DNA of 38,436 bases from Acetobacteraceae bacterium (GTDB lineage Bacteria; Pseudomonadota; Alphaproteobacteria; Acetobacterales; Acetobacteraceae), in NCBI GenBank assembly GCA_947475245.1, contig CANJLW010000038.1, positions 1-38,436 on the forward strand. Reading direction: 5' to 3'. Positions 13,939 through 25,700 of this stretch are shown here, in pieces (the stretch's first letter is position 1; the number at the start of each line of letters is the position of its first letter). The notes under the pieces were generated by a model. The model ran no database searches. It had not been told where the DNA came from and saw only the letters and a program-made list of their open reading frames with translations. Position numbers and translations under genes: made by a program.

Positions 13939-13968
13939 TTGCTCGTCGCGACGTCGCGGCTGTATCCT
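13939..13968 (+). promoter_or_regulatory. possible promoter/operator of the copper operon
   Basis: The 45-bp gap before the copper leader ORF contains TTGCTC (13939-13944) and TATCCT (13963-13968) with an 18-base spacer, a weak sigma-70-like pair. Inside the spacer is a perfect 12-bp palindrome, CGCGACGTCGCG (13947-13958), where MerR-type or other repressors often bind. The palindrome is GC-rich and might be chance, and the typical CueR box is not present. Confidence 0.3.
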
Positions 13969-13975
13969 GCGGGCC

Positions 13976-14311
13976 ATGCTCGCCTGGTGCCGCCTGCTGG
14001 TCATGATTATGGGTCTTCTCGGCCTGACCCTTGGCAATGCCGGCGCGCATCCGATGCCGGCCGCCGATCAGGCGGTGCCCTGTCATAGTGAACAGGGCCA
14101 CTCCGGGCATGACGACGCGCCGGCCCCTGACCGTGACCCCTGCGCTGTCTGCTGCGTCGGCTTTTGCGCGATCGGGGCGGCGATCCCCGCGCGATCCGCC
14201 GCGCCGTCGGTCGACCGCGCATCCGTCGCGGTTGCCTATTGCGCCACCACCGCGCGTTGGGCCGAACGCTCCCTCTCGCCCGATCCCGCGCCGCCCAGAC
14301 CGATCGTCTGA
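13976..14311 (+). CDS. CutF/CopL-like copper-responsive leader ORF
   Basis: A 111-residue small exported protein: hydrophobic signal-like N-terminus (about 5-24, ending NAGAH), a His/Cys-rich middle (CHSEQGHSGHD, 36-46; CAVCCVGFC, 56-64) and a proline-rich end, SLSPDPAPPRPIV (99-111). Position and composition match the short ORFs that precede bacterial copper oxidase or receptor genes: CopL of Xanthomonas, CutF of Rhodobacter, DUF2946 uORFs of Bordetella. In the CutF type the nascent chain with its CxxC-type motif and C-terminal prolines is thought to stall and control translation of the next gene. A 10-bp hairpin begins seven bases after its stop, and its 3' coding end holds a possible anti-Shine-Dalgarno (14268-14272). 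Start chosen at 13976; residue 10 is an alternative. Role is inferred from architecture. Confidence 0.7.
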   Translation: MLAWCRLLVMIMGLLGLTLGNAGAHPMPAADQAVPCHSEQGHSGHDDAPAPDRDPCAVCCVGFCAIGAAIPARSAAPSVDRASVAVAYCATTARWAERSLSPDPAPPRPIV

Positions 14312-14317
14312 CGCCGG

Positions 14318-14340
14318 CCCTGCCATCCACGATGGCGGGG
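14318..14340 (+). promoter_or_regulatory. hairpin just after the copper leader ORF
   Basis: CCCTGCCATC (14318-14327) and GATGGCGGGG (14331-14340) pair over ten positions (one T-G wobble) with a CAC loop, seven bases after the stop of the leader ORF. There is no downstream T-run, so it is more likely a leader structure or processing/attenuation hairpin than a full intrinsic terminator. Confidence 0.5.
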
Positions 14341-14430
14341 TACCAACGACGCGTACGCCGAACCGGACCCAAACCGGTCGCACGCGTGCCCTCAGTCGAT
14401 CAATCGCCCGTCCGTCCCAAGGTCCGGCGC

Positions 14431-14447
14431 GGGCGTTCGCCCAGGAG
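14431..14447 (+). promoter_or_regulatory. ribosome binding site of cusF with abutting hairpin
   Basis: AGGAG at 14443-14447, eight bases before the ATG at 14456, is directly preceded by a short hairpin (GGGC 14431-14434, GCCC 14439-14442). GCTCC at 14268-14272, inside the leader ORF, is complementary to GGAGC at 14444-14448, so the site could be sequestered in the leader mRNA and released by ribosome position. The pairing is deduced by eye and not folded. Confidence 0.4.
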
Positions 14448-14455
14448 CAGTTTCG

Positions 14456-14866
14456 ATGTTCAGACAAACAACGCGCCGCCTTGCGCTGGCGGCAGCCGTA
14501 TTGGCGCAGGCCGCTTGTGCCAATCAGCAGGCCATGGCCGTGAGTCGGCCGACGGTGGCGGAGGACATGGGCGCGTCTTCCCGCGTGCCGAAGCGCCCGC
14601 TGCCGCTACCGGTGCATGACGGCAGGGCGGACGCGCATGCGATGGCCGTCGTCAATGCCGTCGATCCCGCGAAGCGGACGATGAATGTCAGCCACGAGCC
14701 GATTCCGGCGATCGGCTGGCCGGCGATGACGATGGATTTCGCCGTGGCCCCGTCGGTCGATCTGACCGCGGTCAAGCCGGGATCGCGTGTGAACATCGCC
14801 ATCGAAAAGGGCAAGAACGGGATTTACGAGGTGCACGGCGTGCAACCCGCCGGCAAGGCGCGATGA
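14456..14866 (+). CDS. cusF: CusF-type periplasmic copper chaperone
   Basis: A 136-residue exported protein with a signal sequence ending near QAACANQQA (a weak lipobox at C21 is possible) and a C-terminal CusF-type beta-barrel (about 60-132). The copper ligands of E. coli CusF (H36, W44, M47, M49) are reproduced with identical spacing: H80, W88, M91 and M93 in SHEPIPAIGWPAMTMDF. CusF binds Cu(I)/Ag(I) in the periplasm through Met/His with a cation-pi contact to Trp; in Cus systems it hands metal to the CusCBA pump, but no cusCBA is present here, so it probably delivers to or protects CopA. Its stop overlaps the copA start by four bases. Confidence 0.9.
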   Translation: MFRQTTRRLALAAAVLAQAACANQQAMAVSRPTVAEDMGASSRVPKRPLPLPVHDGRADAHAMAVVNAVDPAKRTMNVSHEPIPAIGWPAMTMDFAVAPSVDLTAVKPGSRVNIAIEKGKNGIYEVHGVQPAGKAR

Positions 14867-16584
14867 CCGGGCGCGCGCCGATCCTGGGCCGCCGACGCTT
14901 CGTGCAGGCGGCGGCCTGCGTCGTGCCGTTTGCCTCGGTCCAGACCGCGGGCCACGCTTCGGTCCTGCGCGGCCCGACGGTGGCGCTGGAGATCGCCGCT
15001 GTATCGATCGTGGTCGCGGGCAGGACGAAGACGGCGATCGGAATCAACGGCATGTCCCCGGCGCCGACGCTGCATTGGCGCGAGGGGGACACCGTCACGA
15101 TCGCGGTCACCAACCGGCTGGCGGAGCCGACATCGTTGCATTGGCACGGATTGCGTGTGGAAGCCGCCATGGACGGGGTGCCGGGCTTCGGATTTCGCGC
15201 CATCGCGCCGGGGGAGACTTTCGTCTATCGCCTGACTCTGAGACAAGCGGGAACCTATTGGTATCACAGCCATTCCGGGTTTCAGGAGCAGGCCGGCCTG
15301 TATGGGGCGATCGTGATCGACCCGCGCGACGGCTACGCCGAACCGTTCGATCGCGACTATGTCGTGCTGCTGTCGGGGTGGAGCGACACGCGCGCCGAAA
15401 CCATGATCGGCAATCTGAAAGCCCAGAGCGACTACTACAATGCGGGACGGCGCACCGTCGGCACGTTCCTGCGCGACCTCGGTGAAACCGGGCTGGCGGC
15501 GACGCTGGCCGACCGGCGCGCGTGGGGGGAGATGCGGATGACCCCGACCGACATTCTGGATGCCGGCGGATCGGCGTTTACCTACACAATCAATGGTCAC
15601 TCGGCGGATGCGGGCTGGACCGCACTTTATCGTTCCGGCGAACGCGTGCGGCTGCGGTTCATCAATGCGTCGTCGATGACGCTGTTCGATGTGCGCGTTC
15701 CCGGCCTGCCGATGCTTGTGGTGCAGGCCGACGGCAACGATGTCGAACCGGTCGAGGTCGACGAATGCCGTCTCGGCGTCGGAGAAACCTACGACGCGAT
15801 CGTGCGCCCGGACGGCGATCGAGCCTTCGCCGTCTTCGCGCAGGCCATGGACCGCGGCGGCTTCGCGCTGGGCACCCTGGCACCGCGGCAGGGTATGATT
15901 GCCTCTGCCCCACCCATGGATCGCCCCCCGCTGCGAAGCATGGCGGACATGGGGATGAACCATTCTATGCCGGAGGGTGGTGCCCCGATGGAGCACGGCG
16001 GTGCCCATGCGACGTCGACGCCGAACATGCACGACGGCCACGGTTCGGCGGCACCATCGCCGATGGCATCGCAGTCCGCCGCCGGGGCAATCGGGGTCTC
16101 CGTGGATAATGTTGTCGCGAACCCCATCGATCGCCTGGGCGAACCGGGCACCGGCCTGGAGAATAACGGCCGCCGGGTGCTGACCTATGCCCAATTGCGG
16201 GCAACGCGCGCCGGCGACGATCCCCGCCCGCCGTCGCGCGACATCCAACTGCGCCTGACCGGCAACATGGCGCGCTTCATCTGGGGCTTCGACGGCAAAA
16301 CCCATGCCGAGGCCGAACCCATCCCGCTACGGCTCGGGGAACGGGTGCGCTTCGTTCTGATCAACGACACCATGATGGAGCATCCCATCCATCTGCACGG
16401 ATTCTGGAGCGAGTTGGAGAACGGGCAGGGCGCCTATCAGCCTTACAAGCACACGATCCTGGTCAAACCCGCCGAACGGCTGAGCTTCCTGGTCACGGCG
16501 GATGAGCCGGGACGCTGGGCGTTCCACTGCCACATGCTCTTTCATATGGAGACCGGCATGTTCCGCGAGGTGCGCGTGTCATGA
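14863..16584 (+). CDS. copA: multicopper oxidase CopA (copper resistance)
   Basis: A 573-residue periplasmic multicopper oxidase, predicted to oxidise Cu(I) to Cu(II) and bind excess copper. N-terminus GRRRFVQAAACVVPF is a Tat signal (RRxF). Cupredoxin motifs in order: HWHG (93-96), YHSHSGF (134-140), HPIHLHGFW in the third domain, and HCHMLFHMETGM (555-566) giving type-1 ligands C556, H561 and M566 plus trinuclear-cluster histidines. Between the domains is a Met/His-rich insert (about 360-405, with MADMGMNHSM, MEHGGAH and MHDGHGS) typical of CopA/PcoA. ATGA overlaps on both sides show tight coupling with cusF and copB. This is not the P-type ATPase also named CopA. Confidence 0.96.
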   Translation: MTGRAPILGRRRFVQAAACVVPFASVQTAGHASVLRGPTVALEIAAVSIVVAGRTKTAIGINGMSPAPTLHWREGDTVTIAVTNRLAEPTSLHWHGLRVEAAMDGVPGFGFRAIAPGETFVYRLTLRQAGTYWYHSHSGFQEQAGLYGAIVIDPRDGYAEPFDRDYVVLLSGWSDTRAETMIGNLKAQSDYYNAGRRTVGTFLRDLGETGLAATLADRRAWGEMRMTPTDILDAGGSAFTYTINGHSADAGWTALYRSGERVRLRFINASSMTLFDVRVPGLPMLVVQADGNDVEPVEVDECRLGVGETYDAIVRPDGDRAFAVFAQAMDRGGFALGTLAPRQGMIASAPPMDRPPLRSMADMGMNHSMPEGGAPMEHGGAHATSTPNMHDGHGSAAPSPMASQSAAGAIGVSVDNVVANPIDRLGEPGTGLENNGRRVLTYAQLRATRAGDDPRPPSRDIQLRLTGNMARFIWGFDGKTHAEAEPIPLRLGERVRFVLINDTMMEHPIHLHGFWSELENGQGAYQPYKHTILVKPAERLSFLVTADEPGRWAFHCHMLFHMETGMFREVRVS

Positions 16585-17336
16585 ACCGACCCCTGATCGC
16601 CACCCTCGCGTATCTGGTTGTGGGCGTCGCCTCCGCCGCCGGGGCGCAAGCCGCCGATCCGCACGGCATGAGCACACACGGCGATATGCCGCCGATGATG
16701 GACAGCGCCTGGTTCAGCCATGCGCTGCTGGATCGCATGGAAGCGCGCTACGGTTCGGCCGCCCCCGACATGCGCTGGCAAGGACAGGCATGGATCGGCG
16801 GCGACTACGACAAGCTGAAAGTGAAGACCCAAGGCATTCTGAAACCCGGCGGGCGGGTGGAGGACGGTCGGCACGAGTTGCTCTATGACCGGGCGATCTT
16901 CCGCTACATGGACCTGCAACTCGGGGTTCGCGCCGATCTCGATTCCAGGGTCGGGCGCACCTGGGGGGCGGTTGGCATTCAGGGCGTTGCCCCGCTGTTC
17001 ATCGACTATGAATTGACGGCCTATTTGAGCGATCGCGGCCATGCGGCGGCGCGGGTCGCGCTGGCAACGGATGTGTTGTTGACCCAGTCCCTGGTCCTGC
17101 AACCCGAGATCGAGGCGAACCTCTACAGCAAGGCCGATCCGCGGCGGGGCATCGGGACGGGCTTTGCCGATCTCGATGTCGGGTTGCGGCTGCGCTACGA
17201 GATCACGCGCAAATTCGCCCCCTACGTCGGTGTCTCCTACACGCAGAAATTCGGCGAAACCGCCCGTCTCGGCAGCCTGCACGCGGAACACGACACCGCC
17301 TGGCGCTTCCTGATCGGCATCAGGGGGTGGTTCTGA
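16581..17336 (+). CDS. copB: outer-membrane copper resistance protein CopB
   Basis: A 251-residue outer-membrane protein of the CopB/PcoB family. A signal peptide (about 1-24) is followed by a short Met/His-rich stretch (DPHGMSTHGDMPPMMD) and a beta-barrel with alternating strands such as WQGQAWIGGDYDKLKV, DLQLGVRAD and YVGVSYTQKF, ending in RGWF with the C-terminal aromatic needed for barrel assembly. The longer MxxMDH repeat arrays of Pseudomonas CopB are absent, as in many alphaproteobacteria. It works with CopA in periplasmic and outer-membrane copper sequestration. Start overlaps copA by four bases; stop overlaps the cytochrome start by one base. Confidence 0.92.
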   Translation: MNRPLIATLAYLVVGVASAAGAQAADPHGMSTHGDMPPMMDSAWFSHALLDRMEARYGSAAPDMRWQGQAWIGGDYDKLKVKTQGILKPGGRVEDGRHELLYDRAIFRYMDLQLGVRADLDSRVGRTWGAVGIQGVAPLFIDYELTAYLSDRGHAAARVALATDVLLTQSLVLQPEIEANLYSKADPRRGIGTGFADLDVGLRLRYEITRKFAPYVGVSYTQKFGETARLGSLHAEHDTAWRFLIGIRGWF

Positions 17337-17890
17337 TGCCGCGTATCACGAAGCGCGACGTGGGCGTGGCGGTCTGCGCGATTATGTGCGCCTGCCTCCT
17401 CGGGATCGCGATGGGGACGTCGTATCTCTGGTCCGGCCTTTACAATGTCGCCGCCAGCACGCCGCACGCCGATCTGACCCACTGGGTGCTCGAAACCGCG
17501 CGCACGCGTTCCATTCGTGCCCATGCGCGCGGGATCGTCGCGCCGACGGAGGCGGCGTCGGAGGCGCAAATCCTCGCCGGTCTTTCGCATTTCGCCGAAC
17601 ATTGCGCGGTCTGCCATGGCGCGCCCGGCGTTCCCCAGGGCGACATTGCGCGCGGACTGTATCCTCCCGCCCCCGATCTGGCTGGGACCGTTCGACGCTA
17701 CAACGCCGCGGAGACGTTCTGGATCGTGAAGTTCGGCATCAAATCGACCGGCATGCCGGCATGGAGCGATCACGCCGACGACGCGCTTTGGGCGACGGTC
17801 GCCTTCATCCGGATGCTTCCCGGCTTGAGCAAAGAGGATTACGCCAAGCTGTTGATGACGAGCATCATGCAGGGAGGCCACCGCCATTAG
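17336..17890 (+). CDS. membrane-anchored c-type cytochrome in the copper operon
   Basis: A 184-residue protein with an N-terminal membrane anchor (about 10-32) and one class I cytochrome c domain. The haem motif is CAVCH (90-94); M140 in STGMPAW is the likely axial ligand, and DDALWATVAFIRMLP near residue 148 is the usual terminal helix. The tail ends GGHRH. Start is the ATG at 17336 within TGATG, so translation is coupled to copB. A cytochrome is not part of the classical cop/pco operon; it may accept electrons released when CopA oxidises Cu(I), or belong to another electron chain. That role is inference. Confidence 0.88.
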   Translation: MPRITKRDVGVAVCAIMCACLLGIAMGTSYLWSGLYNVAASTPHADLTHWVLETARTRSIRAHARGIVAPTEAASEAQILAGLSHFAEHCAVCHGAPGVPQGDIARGLYPPAPDLAGTVRRYNAAETFWIVKFGIKSTGMPAWSDHADDALWATVAFIRMLPGLSKEDYAKLLMTSIMQGGHRH

Positions 17891-17953: not shown

Positions 17954-18877
17954 ATGACGATCCTGCCGAGCCCGCAGCAGTTGCGGTATCTGGTGGCGTT
18001 GGCGGAAAGTCGGCATTTCGGGCGCGCGGCTTTGGCTTGCGCGGTCACGCAATCCACGCTGTCGGCGGGGATACTGGCGTTGGAGCGTCAACTCGACGCC
18101 CAGGTGCTGGATCGCACCGCCGGGCGGCACGTGGTGTTTACGCCCTTGGGTCTCGATCTCGTGGATCGCGCGCGGGCGGCGCTGGCGGCGCTGGAAGCCG
18201 TCAGCGAGACCGCCCTGGCGGCGCGGGAGCCGATGTCGGGCCCGCTGCGTATGGGCGTGATCCCGACCATCGGCCCGTTCCTGCTGCCCCGCTTGATGCC
18301 GGTCCTGCGCGCCGCTTTCCCGCGCCTGCGGTTGTTTCTGCGTGAGGATACCACCGCGCGCCTGGTCGACCGGCTGGAAACCAACCGGCTGGACGTGCTG
18401 CTGCTGGCGCTGCCCTGCGACTGCGGACCGTCGGAGGTGATGCCGATCGGGCGGGACGAATTCGTGGTCGCGCTGCCGCCGGGGCACAGCCTGGCCGGCC
18501 AGCCGACCATTCAGGTCGCCGCGATCGCGAATGAGCGGTTGCTGCTGTTGGAAGACGGGCATTGCCTGCGCGATCAGGCCTTGGCGGTGTGCGGCCTGCT
18601 GGCGGGCGAAAAGGGGGACTCGCAGGACGGCTTTGCCGCGACATCCCTGCATACCCTGGTGCAGATGGTCGCGGGCGGGCTGGGGATTACCTTGCTCCCC
18701 CGCCTTGCGGTCGCGGCCGGCATCGCCGAGGGCACCGGCGTCGTGCTGCGTCCGCTCGCGGGTCCCAGCGCGTGGCGCACCCTGGGCCTGGCATGGCGCC
18801 CGAACGCGCCGCGCGCGGGGGATTACCGGGCCTTGGCGCCGCATCTGTCGGAAACCTGCCGCGAAGTGCTGCGTTGA
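17954..18877 (+). CDS. oxyR: hydrogen peroxide-responsive regulator OxyR
   Basis: A 307-residue LysR-family regulator: N-terminal winged helix-turn-helix (about 6-65), linker, and a sensor domain (about 95-300). The redox motif is present as DGHCLRDQALAVC, with C204 and C213 nine residues apart exactly as C199 and C208 of E. coli OxyR, and is followed by ATSLHTLVQMVAGGLGITLLP, also diagnostic. In known OxyR, peroxide forms the disulfide and switches the tetramer to activate katG, ahpC and related genes. No such target is next to it. Its place after the copper operon fits copper stress producing peroxide, but it may have its own promoter in the 63-bp gap. Confidence 0.95.
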   Translation: MTILPSPQQLRYLVALAESRHFGRAALACAVTQSTLSAGILALERQLDAQVLDRTAGRHVVFTPLGLDLVDRARAALAALEAVSETALAAREPMSGPLRMGVIPTIGPFLLPRLMPVLRAAFPRLRLFLREDTTARLVDRLETNRLDVLLLALPCDCGPSEVMPIGRDEFVVALPPGHSLAGQPTIQVAAIANERLLLLEDGHCLRDQALAVCGLLAGEKGDSQDGFAATSLHTLVQMVAGGLGITLLPRLAVAAGIAEGTGVVLRPLAGPSAWRTLGLAWRPNAPRAGDYRALAPHLSETCREVLR

Positions 18878-23170: not shown

Positions 23171-25246
23171 TCAGAACGCCATGCGCGCGCCGAAGTAAAC
23201 GCTTCGTCCGTCACCGGGATAGAACGTCTGCGTGCCCGATGCGGAATACCGCGTTACCGGACCGAAGTCGCTGATATAGCGCTTGTCGGTCAGGTTGCGT
23301 GCATCCATGAATACTGACAGGCCGTTGGCGAAGTCGATCCCGGCCTGTAGCCCGAGCAGAATATAGTTCGGCACCCGTTGGGTATTGGCATAGTCGACGA
23401 ACGCGCATGTCGGGACGATATCGAGCGACGGCGCGATATAGAAGCCGCTGGGGTGTGTATAGGACAGCGTCGTGCGGAAGACATGCTCGGGGATACCGGC
23501 CAGGCTATTGTTCCCGTACCGGCGGTCGTTCTGGAAGTGGAAGTGGCTGTAGTTCCACAACTGCCGCAGGACAAGGCGGTCGTCGGCGGCGAAGGCTCCA
23601 CGTGCCAGGTCGATACTGGCCCCAAGTTCGACCCCCTGCAGGATCGTCGTGCCCGCGTTGAACGTTGACGCCGGAACGCTTGAACCGACGCTGTATTGCA
23701 GCAACTGCCCGTCGACGTGGGAACGATAGGCGGTGATGTCCCACGCGAAGCGATCCTGCCGGCCGCGGGTGCCGAGTTCGAGCGTATAGGCGCTTTGCGT
23801 TTTCAACGGCACGAATCCCGACCCGCCGCCCGGTTGGAACTGCGTTAGGTCCAGGAAATCGGGCACGTCGCGACTGCCCGAGAGGTTCGCGAAGACCTGG
23901 ACGTCCTTCTTCGGCTCCCACAGGACTCCGACCTTCGGCACGATACCGTCGAAATCGCGTGTCTTGCGGCTGTAGATGGGGCCGGACGACAGCGGCAACC
24001 CGCCGAAATCGGTGTAGTCGCGGTTGGCATGGAACAGCTTGGCCCCGCCGACCAGCGCCACCGTCGGTAATACGAACAGCCGGTTTTCGACATAGGCTTC
24101 GGCGTTCCAGGCATCCTGGCGCGCGTTCAGCGTCTGGCTCGATCGGCTGCCGCGGCTGTTGAAGAACCAACGTGCCCGGTTGTTGCCGCCATAGATCCGT
24201 CCGCCGATCACGATCTCGTCGCGCAGTCCGGCGAGGTCGAAGCTTCCAGTGTAGCGCGGCGCGAAACCATAGGTGTAGCCGTCGTAGTCCAGAACCATGA
24301 AGATCGGATGGAACAATGTCTGGTGGATCAGCCAGGTGTCGAAGTCCAGTCGCCCGCTTTCCAACCGGATCGACGTGCGGTTTGCCAGCCGCTCGGTCCG
24401 TACGTTGCGGGCCTGATTGCCGGAAACCGCGTCGGCGGATGCCTGACGCGGGTTGGTCAGTGCCTGGTTCAACGTCACGGTACCCGGCAGCTTTTGATCC
24501 GTGACGTAGATTCCGGCGTAGAACCGCGTTTCGACATCCGGATTGATCCGGAAACCGATGTTCGCGTTAAACTGCGCATATTTCTGCGTCATGTGTTGCC
24601 GATAGCCGTCGGCATGGCTCAGCGTACCGTTGATCAGGAAATCGACATCGCCCATTACGCGCGATACCTGCGCGCTCACACGCGCAGTACCGAAGCTGCC
24701 GGCATCGAAGCGCACGATATTGGGCGCGATCGCGGTATGCGCGGTCGGCGTCACGAAGTTGATCGCTCCCCCCAGTGTCATCGATCCGAACGGCAGGGCG
24801 TTTCCGCCCTTATGGATCTCCGCGGAGCGCAGGCCGAGCGGATCGATCTGATAAAAATCGCCGATGCCGTCGGCAAGGTTGGTGGGGATGCCGTCTTGCA
24901 GGATTTCGATGCCGCGCGTGTGAAAGTCGCGCCCCAGGCCGGAGCCGCGCACGGACAGGCGAAGTTCCTGACCGTAGCGTGTTTGCACGAACACGCCGGG
25001 GCTGTCCTGCAGCACGTCGCGCAGATTATTGGCATAGCGTTGCGCGAAGGACTCGCTGTCGACGAAACCGACCGAACCGGCGGTTTTGAACAGGTCTTCC
25101 CGCTGTTGTGAGAGCGCCGGGACCGTGAGCGACCCCGGAGGTGCCGCGACGACCGAAACCGGTGTCAACGTTGTGTGAGTTTGGGCAAACGCGGTGGATG
25201 CCAGCAGCGCTAGGGCGCTGCCGGTCAACAGATGAGCTTTGAACAT
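23171..25246 (-). CDS. TonB-dependent outer-membrane receptor
   Basis: A 691-residue receptor. The ATG at 25246 follows AGGAG by eight bases and begins a clean signal peptide (MFKAHLLTGSALALLASTAFA). A TonB-box-like TLTPVSVVAA follows, then the plug (about 45-180, with NNLRDVLQDSPGVFVQTRYG, LSVRGSGLGRDFHTRGIEIL and GSMTLGGAINFVTP), then a 22-strand barrel ending in GARMAF with a terminal Phe. The plug resembles FecA-type siderophore receptors. The DUF2946-type short ORF 55 bp upstream suggests copper control, by analogy with bfrG of Bordetella, so the ligand may be a copper or other metal chelate; that is inference. No regulator of the FecIR type is nearby. Confidence 0.92.
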   Translation of the reverse strand: MFKAHLLTGSALALLASTAFAQTHTTLTPVSVVAAPPGSLTVPALSQQREDLFKTAGSVGFVDSESFAQRYANNLRDVLQDSPGVFVQTRYGQELRLSVRGSGLGRDFHTRGIEILQDGIPTNLADGIGDFYQIDPLGLRSAEIHKGGNALPFGSMTLGGAINFVTPTAHTAIAPNIVRFDAGSFGTARVSAQVSRVMGDVDFLINGTLSHADGYRQHMTQKYAQFNANIGFRINPDVETRFYAGIYVTDQKLPGTVTLNQALTNPRQASADAVSGNQARNVRTERLANRTSIRLESGRLDFDTWLIHQTLFHPIFMVLDYDGYTYGFAPRYTGSFDLAGLRDEIVIGGRIYGGNNRARWFFNSRGSRSSQTLNARQDAWNAEAYVENRLFVLPTVALVGGAKLFHANRDYTDFGGLPLSSGPIYSRKTRDFDGIVPKVGVLWEPKKDVQVFANLSGSRDVPDFLDLTQFQPGGGSGFVPLKTQSAYTLELGTRGRQDRFAWDITAYRSHVDGQLLQYSVGSSVPASTFNAGTTILQGVELGASIDLARGAFAADDRLVLRQLWNYSHFHFQNDRRYGNNSLAGIPEHVFRTTLSYTHPSGFYIAPSLDIVPTCAFVDYANTQRVPNYILLGLQAGIDFANGLSVFMDARNLTDKRYISDFGPVTRYSASGTQTFYPGDGRSVYFGARMAF

Positions 25247-25301: not shown

Positions 25302-25700
25302 TTACGCCGCGACGGATAACGATCGGGAGAGGGAAGGGGGCCCGCGCGCGCGCGGGGCGTATAACGGCGGGCCGCGCGGCCCGGCGGAATGTGCCGGGTC
25401 CGCCAGAGTTTCGACCAGCACATGGGGCGGCAGCGGCAGGACAGGCGCCGCGGATAACGTAACCGGATCGACGGCGGTCGCGATCTGGCAGAGCGGGCAC
25501 TGCGCGCCGTGGCGATGATCCTCCGGCACGCCCGGGTCGCCGGTTGTTCCGCCGTCGGGTGAGGCTGCGACGCAGATGGTTGCGTGGTTGCCGGGGTCGA
25601 ACAACGCCCCCGCCCGGATCATGGCAATGGGCAGGCAGATCTGCAGCGCGATTGCGAGCAAGAATGCCGGCAGAGCCGTGAAAGGGCGGGGAAGCGTCAT
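25302..25700 (-). CDS. DUF2946-type exported short ORF, putative copper-sensing leader
   Basis: A 132-residue protein with a signal-like N-terminus (about 8-30), HRHGAQCPLCQ (62-72, CxxC at 68-71) and a C-terminal PRARGPPSLSRSLSVAA (116-132), with an earlier PRGPP as well. CPLC plus terminal RGPP is the hallmark of DUF2946-type small proteins. I recall that such ORFs upstream of TonB-dependent receptor genes in Bordetella act in cis as copper-responsive upstream ORFs. Here the ORF ends 55 bp before the receptor start on the same strand, the same arrangement. SRPBCC gene ends 21 bp upstream. It could instead be a stable periplasmic copper-binding protein. Confidence 0.75.
   Translation of the reverse strand: MTLPRPFTALPAFLLAIALQICLPIAMIRAGALFDPGNHATICVAASPDGGTTGDPGVPEDHRHGAQCPLCQIATAVDPVTLSAAPVLPLPPHVLVETLADPAHSAGPRGPPLYAPRARGPPSLSRSLSVAA

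Follow-up and report, generated by a model that had tools for sequence, protein, structure and literature searches.

A CutF-like leader ORF with a Pro-Pro-Arg tail as a candidate copper-responsive attenuation signal upstream of cusF-copA-copB in an Acetobacteraceae bacterium

The copper locus

The stretch of DNA analysed here (the window) covers 38,436 nucleotides of an Acetobacteraceae genome and contains a short leader ORF followed, on the same strand, by the genes of a copper operon (Table 1). An original prediction, made from the letters alone, had named this downstream set as cusF, copA, copB and a cytochrome, and profiles bear it out with matches to CusF_Ec, copper_res_A, CopB and a cytochrome c domain. 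From cusF onward, neighbouring genes overlap by 4, 4 and 10 bases. The four nearest named loci, ranked by CopA, belong to three Acetobacteraceae MAGs and one Rhodospirillales MAG. Directly 3' of the operon lies a gene for a LysR-type regulator (17954-18877, + strand), whose top NCBIfam match is OxyR at 254.6 bits against a cut-off of 329. Nowhere in the window did a known RNA family match at Rfam gathering scores.

Table 1. Features of the leader region and the copper operon, in window coordinates
Feature	Position	Strand	Detail or basis
Sigma70-like promoter, TTGCTC-18-TATCCT (predicted)	13939..13968	+	-35 13939-13944, -10 13963-13968
Leader ORF, 111 aa, CutF-like, hydrophobic N terminus	13976..14311	+	stop codon 14309-14311
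Putative copper site CAVCCVGFC, residues 56-64, overlapping CxxC and CxxxC	14141..14167	+	
GCTCC, proposed anti-SD	14268..14272	+	not conserved
PPR codons CCG CCC AGA, suspected pause site	14291..14299	+	rare Arg codon
Spacer from leader stop to cusF, 144 nt	14312..14455	+	C>G around stop, rut-like
Post-stop hairpin, 10 pairs (one G-U), no T-run	14318..14340	+	arms 14318-14327 and 14331-14340
AGGAG, ribosome site of cusF	14443..14447	+	sequence
cusF-like gene (CusF_Ec, PF11604)	14456..14866	+	profile match
copA, multicopper oxidase (TIGR01480, copper_res_A)	14863..16584	+	profile match; Tat-like RRRF start by eye
copB (PF05275, CopB)	16581..17336	+	profile match
Cytochrome c (PF13442)	17327..17890	+	profile match

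The leader ORF and its relatives

The first ORF of the locus has the properties originally described for it, namely 111 residues, the motif CAVCC (residues 56-60), a stretch containing His and a C terminus reading PDPAPPRPIV, and its product is apparently exported, to judge from the hydrophobic N terminus. The ORF falls under all curated profile cut-offs. Its best Pfam match is DUF2946 (PF11162), at 14.3 bits and an E value of 0.069, below the gathering score of 23.7. A protein search returned a single relative, P0001, with 93% identity. Further relatives came from a rule-based scan 5' of copA and from searching 33 genomes of the genus with a profile, which together supplied 11 more leaders (L112-L115 and L171-L177), or 12 with that of the window. 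A match to CusF_Ec is found in the next gene of the window and of 10 of the 11 others; in L113 that place is taken by an ORF of 80 codons without a family match, and in L172 the contig stops before the expected position of copA. Three leaders identical to L125 (L126-L128), one lacking a stop (L151) and one with a broken frame (L182) were left out of the leader sets, L156 was dropped from counts of Pro-Pro tails, and the CopL-type loci, L085 and L014 were kept apart from the main set. Many of these loci come from related species, and that kinship makes the p values given below optimistic.

Conservation was read from an alignment of 11 proteins, comprising the window leader, P0001, eight of the further leaders and L040. 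M1, C59, R98, P102, P106 and P107 are invariant, and C56, C60, C64, Y88 and R108 are conserved in at least 90%. DUF2946 is matched at an E value of 1 or better by 8 of the 11 aligned leaders (best 0.0019), and DUF6153 by three of them (best 0.00023). Within the set of 12, a CxxC motif occurs in 10 leaders, L115 and L177 being the two without it, and its last Cys stands 47 residues from the Pro-Pro motif in nine; L176, which lacks the first Cys, has a spacing of 42. Exactly four residues follow Pro-Pro in 11 of the 12. Across the wider group of PPR-type leaders the distance is looser, at 44-50 residues in 13 of the 24 that have a CxxC, and is 63-64 in those of the multicopper-oxidase type. Profile A6 had matches in 6 of the 385 class genomes, one of these being the genome of the window. 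A separate regularity concerns the last codon: in 75 of 78 leaders, drawn from all three tail classes, the final sense codon ends in C, compared with 44 of 139 other genes.

A rare arginine codon after Pro-Pro

The PPR-type set consists of 40 leaders, 39 from Acetobacteraceae plus L040 from an alphaproteobacterial MAG. Pro-Pro is followed by Arg in 37 and by Lys in the other three, and the 37 Arg codons divide into 20 AGA, 13 CGA, 3 CGC and 1 CGG. AGA or CGA thus accounts for 33 of 37, as against 103 of 1345 Arg codons (7.7%) in the downstream genes of the same loci and 15 of 99 among the other Arg codons of the same leaders (Fisher p = 9e-16, relatedness ignored). For the second Pro, 37 of the 40 leaders use CCC or CCT. 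One leader labelled RxPP, L137, is in fact a PPR leader with AGA, and relabelling it brings the count to 34 of 38; L230, matched by profile A6, also reads PPR with CGA. There are exceptions, since in L115 and L177 Pro-Pro is followed by CGC, a common codon, and L014, a PPPR leader of another family, has CGG, contrary to the codon reading. Where Lys follows Pro-Pro, the codon is AAA in all three leaders of the main set and AAA twice and AAG three times among the others read.

Leaders with other tails give a mixed picture. In RxPP leaders the Arg before Pro-Pro is encoded by CGC in 14 of 29 and by AGA or CGA in 7 of 29 (7 of 28 without L137). In CopL-type leaders the raw count for CGA is 8 of 13, and rare Arg codons therefore seem to extend beyond the PPR class.

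An independent set was assembled through multicopper-oxidase homology, with 165 of the 385 class genomes matching and 30 loci listed. Among those 30 loci, 13 have a leader (11 of them distinct) and 17 have none by the rule used. Of the distinct leaders from other families with Arg after Pro-Pro, 7 of 8 use CGA or AGA, against a background of 25 of 275, and in 10 of the 13 the first in-frame oxidase start lies 134-142 nt downstream; the spread beyond Acetobacteraceae is based on these 13 leaders (11 distinct) among the 30 loci listed. In L243, L245 and L247 (genomes G420, G365 and G527, from three different families) the leader and stop hairpin ahead of a multicopper oxidase are nearly identical, which suggests recent transfer of the leader-oxidase unit.

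A predicted leaderless start

The promoter-like sequence ahead of the leader reads TTGCTC-18-TATCCT-7-ATG (13939-13975 up to the start codon). The predicted +1 coincides with the A of the leader ATG, and the leader mRNA is therefore probably leaderless. None of 200 shuffles equalled the score of this site. The arrangement recurs in the genus: for 10 of the 12 leaders, the best promoter-like site within 100 nt upstream is found 6-8 nt ahead of the ATG, and in 8 of the 12 no more than 1 of 200 shuffles scored as well. L175 and L176 showed no such placement in the scan of 100 nt upstream. Scores from the same scan are 6-9 before cusF compared with 9-16 before the leaders. Transcription of the leader may be constitutive, in which case copper would have to exert its control further along. 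The promoter spacer itself contains a perfect 12-bp palindrome, CGCGACGTCGCG (13947-13958), a possible regulator site.

A hairpin at the leader stop

The hairpin originally placed just after the leader stop is well supported by folding, with a pairing probability of 0.98-1.00 in three folding contexts. Only 2 of 117 control stops have a post-stop hairpin as strong, and none of 12 dinucleotide shuffles of the window's own sequence reaches it. When the best single hairpin starting no more than 10 nt past a stop is compared, the 12 leaders have a median of -15.9 kcal/mol, against -7.5 at the 117 other stops (Mann-Whitney p = 5e-7), and they also differ from the 23 stops that have a same-strand gene 60-400 nt further on (p = 9e-6). 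Taken one by one, only 5 of the 12 leader hairpins exceed all 12 of their dinucleotide shuffles.

Evidence for conservation of the stem depends on how the loci are aligned. In a hand alignment of 10 of the 12, which is biased towards structure, all 50 cells of the five-pair outer stem are paired and both-sided changes occur at pairs 2, 3 and 5. In a machine alignment of six loci, both-sided changes occur at 3 of 10 pairs, compared with 0.7 for shuffled alignments, of which 3 in 500 reached that level; by a second measure, the number of further pair types, the loci did not stand out from shuffles (500 of 500). RNAalifold, run on a MAFFT alignment of nine loci, gave six pairs with a covariation term of 0.1, owing to stems that lie out of register in that alignment. 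The original prediction had staked its hairpins on covariation in relatives, and for this first one compensatory changes are indeed found in close relatives. A covariance model built from six relatives (R1) recovered those six stops and missed the window hairpin; its two other strong matches in the window's genome follow unrelated genes, one of them with a T-run. A hairpin of leader-like shape with a T-run, and thus terminator-like, also lies just past an unrelated gene in two genomes of the genus (L220 and L210).

When the first 45 nt past the stop were folded for 53 leaders, z fell below -1.5 in 21, a proportion that marks the shuffle test as a weak one in GC-rich DNA; at CopL-type loci the corresponding figure is 2 of 13. 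Leaders of other families, taken from the 30 listed oxidase loci, have a stop hairpin at least as strong as -13.7 kcal/mol in 12 of 13, and only 3 of the 13 exceed all 30 shuffles. In a set of hairpins from other families (A8), the single double-changed pair did not stand out from shuffles (293 of 500), while the cells paired (10 of 500) and the covariation score (27 of 500) were above them.

Strand composition and the ribosome site of cusF

In the region of the leader stop C exceeds G. Over 78 nt around the stop, C minus G averages 20.0% in the 12 leaders compared with -2.6% at 171 other gene ends. In the last 20 codons the excess lies above the synonymous mean in 12 of 12 leaders, at 21.8 observed against 13.0, so that most of the signal is due to the amino acids encoded. 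Individually, just 4 of the 12 leaders fall in the top 5% of recodings, with the window outside (57 of 500), and the C excess of L115 is ordinary among its own genes, where 23% of sense windows are as high. CruR, described as using Rho, combines a bubble of C over G with a long intergenic region of 162 bp (PMC9426467). Because the present leaders share that combination of C over G and a long spacer, their composition favours a Rho-type output over masking of the Shine-Dalgarno sequence (SD), the action of Rho here being putative.

Masking is another way in which a leader could control cusF: RNA structure would hide the cusF SD until a copper-stalled leader ribosome opened it, as published for cutF-cutO of Rhodobacter capsulatus. 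The original prediction had offered two structures for the purpose. The first, a second hairpin abutting AGGAG (GGGC/GCCC, 14431-14442), is not supported, with a predicted probability of 0.00-0.01. The second was a pairing of GCTCC in the end of the ORF with GGAGC at the ribosome site. The letters are there, GCTCC and AGGAG alike, and the pairing is not conserved; its probability is about 0.06, 0.14 or 0.90-0.97 according to the length of upstream RNA folded, the highest values belonging to the context 14260-14500. When leader ends were recoded synonymously, with 60 recodings per locus, the window proved unremarkable, since 23 of 60 pair with the SD as much. Two of the 12 loci stand out in favour of pairing, L176 (0 of 60) and L173 (1 of 60), and a tendency is seen in L115 (3 of 60), L175 (4 of 60), L113 (7 of 60) and L177 (7 of 60), whereas L171 (43 of 60) and L172 (46 of 60) go in the opposite direction. 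A ribosome modelled at the stop in nine loci clearly raised SD access in L112, L114 and L173 and changed it little in the other six. Moreover, the gap from leader stop to next start is 105-196 nt across the 12 leaders, compared with 40 bp in cutF-cutO (PMC8456105, partial text). Because the recoding results differ between loci, masking may operate in some species and does not look, from these models, like a shared feature, and as the explanation for the window we consider it unlikely. Of the CutF reading given in the original prediction, the family assignment stands on architecture, and the shielding of the ribosome site finds no support in the predicted structures.

A proposed mechanism and its alternatives

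The reading that we favour, with somewhat more belief than doubt, is that a CutF-like, copper-responsive leader would act in cis on cusF-copA-copB-cytochrome c through a pause at Pro-Pro-Arg and attenuation in the spacer. It draws on ORF conservation, spacing, codon choice, promoter placement, the hairpin and the excess of C over G, from which we infer copper binding, pausing, the direction of the response and the output step. Transcription would start at the predicted +1, and the chain would be exported by ribosomes as it is made. Because of the 47-residue spacing, the Cys site would reach the membrane when Pro106-Pro107 stand at the peptidyl-transferase centre, and the ribosome would pause after Pro-Pro with a rare Arg codon, here AGA, in the A site. 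Binding of copper would alter the length of the pause, probably by lengthening it, as published for CutF. The paused ribosome would cover the C-rich end of the ORF just 5' of the stop-proximal hairpin, and the pause would decide whether RNA polymerase or the mRNA survives across the 144-nt spacer to cusF. Rho-like attenuation or decay within the spacer seems a more likely output than the uncovering of a masked SD.

The hairpin could instead act as a 3'-end or stability element, capping the short leader RNA left by termination or decay in the spacer, with the leader peptide playing little regulatory role. Its stem starts at +3 to +7 in all 10 hand-aligned loci, with no T-run after it, and unrelated genes of the genus have similar hairpins at their 3' ends. 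Such an element would leave the Cys to Pro-Pro spacing, the AGA/CGA bias and the PPR tail unaccounted for, and we regard it as quite improbable. The leader protein itself could also be the functional product, as a small, Cys/His-rich protein comparable with the chaperone initially proposed for CutF (PMC8456105, partial text), although CutF is active in cis only and is degraded upon export (PMC9973294, partial text). To this we assign a low probability, given that conservation is focused on the Cys site and the last 14 residues, that the spacing is near-fixed and that synonymous codons are constrained after Pro-Pro.

Programmed +1 frameshifting at CCC-AGA or CCC-CGA, slippery-looking codons, with the hairpin as stimulator and ribosomes carried through the spacer, was rejected as extremely improbable: the +1 frame is open from 14031 to 14543 (+ strand), through the spacer into cusF, and beyond the spacer in some relatives, but it is not conserved, closing before the stop in L040, L136, L138 and L078. 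In L183 it ends at +4, and in L171-L174 and L114 it runs to +19, within the hairpin. One locus is of separate interest, L176 (genome G007): relative to the leader, cusF there occupies the +1 frame, which stays open through the whole spacer, so that a frameshift could fuse the leader to CusF; among the other leaders L115 alone has a gap of the same phase.

Copper-tuned pausing with spacer attenuation may extend beyond this operon. PPR leaders in general may be codon-programmed arrest peptides, leaderless, furnished with a stop hairpin, tuned by copper and under selection for a rare Arg codon, with attenuation in the spacer as their output, a tentative generalisation that we doubt rather more than we believe. 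If it were true, tRNA supply would join copper in governing arrest, in contrast to the RAPP/RGPP class of CruR, in which Arg comes before Pro-Pro and mostly has an ordinary codon, and a periplasmic metal signal would be coupled to codon-limited decoding in bacteria. A 2024 paper describes ribosome arrest on CutF as undemonstrated, and the Pro-Pro tail of CutF alone caused no arrest in a LepB fusion (PMC9973294, partial text). The rare Arg codon, the Cys to Pro-Pro spacing, the leaderless start and the stop hairpin make a CutF-type mechanism testable.

Comparison with CutF, CruR and CopL-type leaders

By its size, Cys site, PPR tail, 47-residue spacing, position at the head of an operon and conservation, all read from sequence, the leader ORF is a genuine CutF-like member, and its product very probably senses copper during its own synthesis. 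CutF, from the cutFOG operon of R. capsulatus, is likewise a small, putatively exported Cys ORF with a proline-rich tail that stands first before copper detoxification genes, and its C terminus reads PEPEGPPPRL (PMC9973294 and PMC8456105, partial texts). The published rules for CutF-like ORFs, as given in the partial text of PMC9973294, are fewer than 150 residues with Pro-Pro no more than 15 residues from the C terminus, a CxxxC motif or variant, and a Sec signal peptide predicted by SignalP; the window ORF has 111 residues, Pro-Pro at 106-107, CAVCCVGFC and a hydrophobic N terminus, with a fitting neighbour in cusF at +144. Both systems have a stem-loop 3' of the ORF and a similar distance between the Cys and Pro-Pro motifs, about 45 residues by the CutF authors' count (partial text). 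The differences lie downstream, where the window has a 144-nt gap instead of 40 bp (PMC8456105, partial text) and cusF-copAB-cytochrome instead of cutO-cutG. Moreover, its stem-loop lies away from the SD, and by computed folding it does not shield the next SD as that of CutF does.

That CutF-like ORFs precede copper genes, among them cusF, has been published (PMC9973294, partial text). What appears to be new here, judged against an open-licence PMC library, is the rare AGA/CGA codon after Pro-Pro as a common property of most PPR leaders, a predicted leaderless start common to most of the 12 leaders, a hairpin at the stop, distant from the SD, that the leaders have in common, and near the putative stall codons a surplus of C over G larger than the protein sequence accounts for. 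The words 'rare' and 'leaderless' are absent from the main text of PMC9973294, as are 'rare codon', 'codon usage' and 'leaderless' from that of PMC8456105.

CruR of Bordetella pertussis, a DUF2946 protein (PMC9426467), resembles the window leader in its CxxC motif and in a near-identical spacing from there to the proline motif, which comes to 48 on the same count and by the numbering of that paper, as well as in its long intergenic region and the C over G near the leader end. Indeed, the spacing is 46-50 in all 29 RxPP-labelled loci (28 without L137), a range that takes in the 47 of the window. CruR arrests translation in vitro with its Pro-Pro codons in the P and A sites. Unlike the window ORF, with its PAPPR and a DUF2946 score under the cut-off, CruR has RAPP encoded by frequent codons, with Arg before Pro-Pro, and its target, an uptake operon, is repressed. 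The window ORF does not contain the R[AG]PP arrest motif, and a profile of RxPP-type leaders matches it weakly (76% over 36 columns). CopL-type leaders, from Dyella, Luteimonas and others, are also Cys/His-rich small ORFs before copA with Pro-Pro near the C terminus. They differ in ending in LRPP, and their profile reaches the window ORF with an hhalign probability of 42% over 16 columns, short of a match.

The tails fall into two classes that also differ in the genes they precede. At the loci looked at, R[AG]PP leaders head genes for TonB receptors, DUF1775 proteins, PCuAC or a weakly matching binding protein (22.0 bits, cut-off 27.5), and PPR leaders head cusF-copA, multicopper oxidases or YtkA genes; of these neighbours ten proteins were profiled (one without a match, two below cut-off) and the rest were assigned by eye. 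Published neighbours run along the same lines, with RAPP/RGPP ORFs preceding TonB, YcnI, PCuAC and PepSY genes, and CutF-like ORFs preceding efflux genes and cusF (PMC9973294, partial text). The window holds one leader of each kind. About 11 kb from the CutF-like leader lies a second, CruR-like one (25302-25700, - strand), with CPLC, RARGPP and a DUF2946 match of 35.3 bits, above the cut-off; it stands 55 nt before a TonB receptor gene (23171-25246, - strand). If this division is right, the tail alone might predict the direction of the copper response, with PPR pointing to detoxification and RxPP, at the loci looked at, to uptake or copper assembly.
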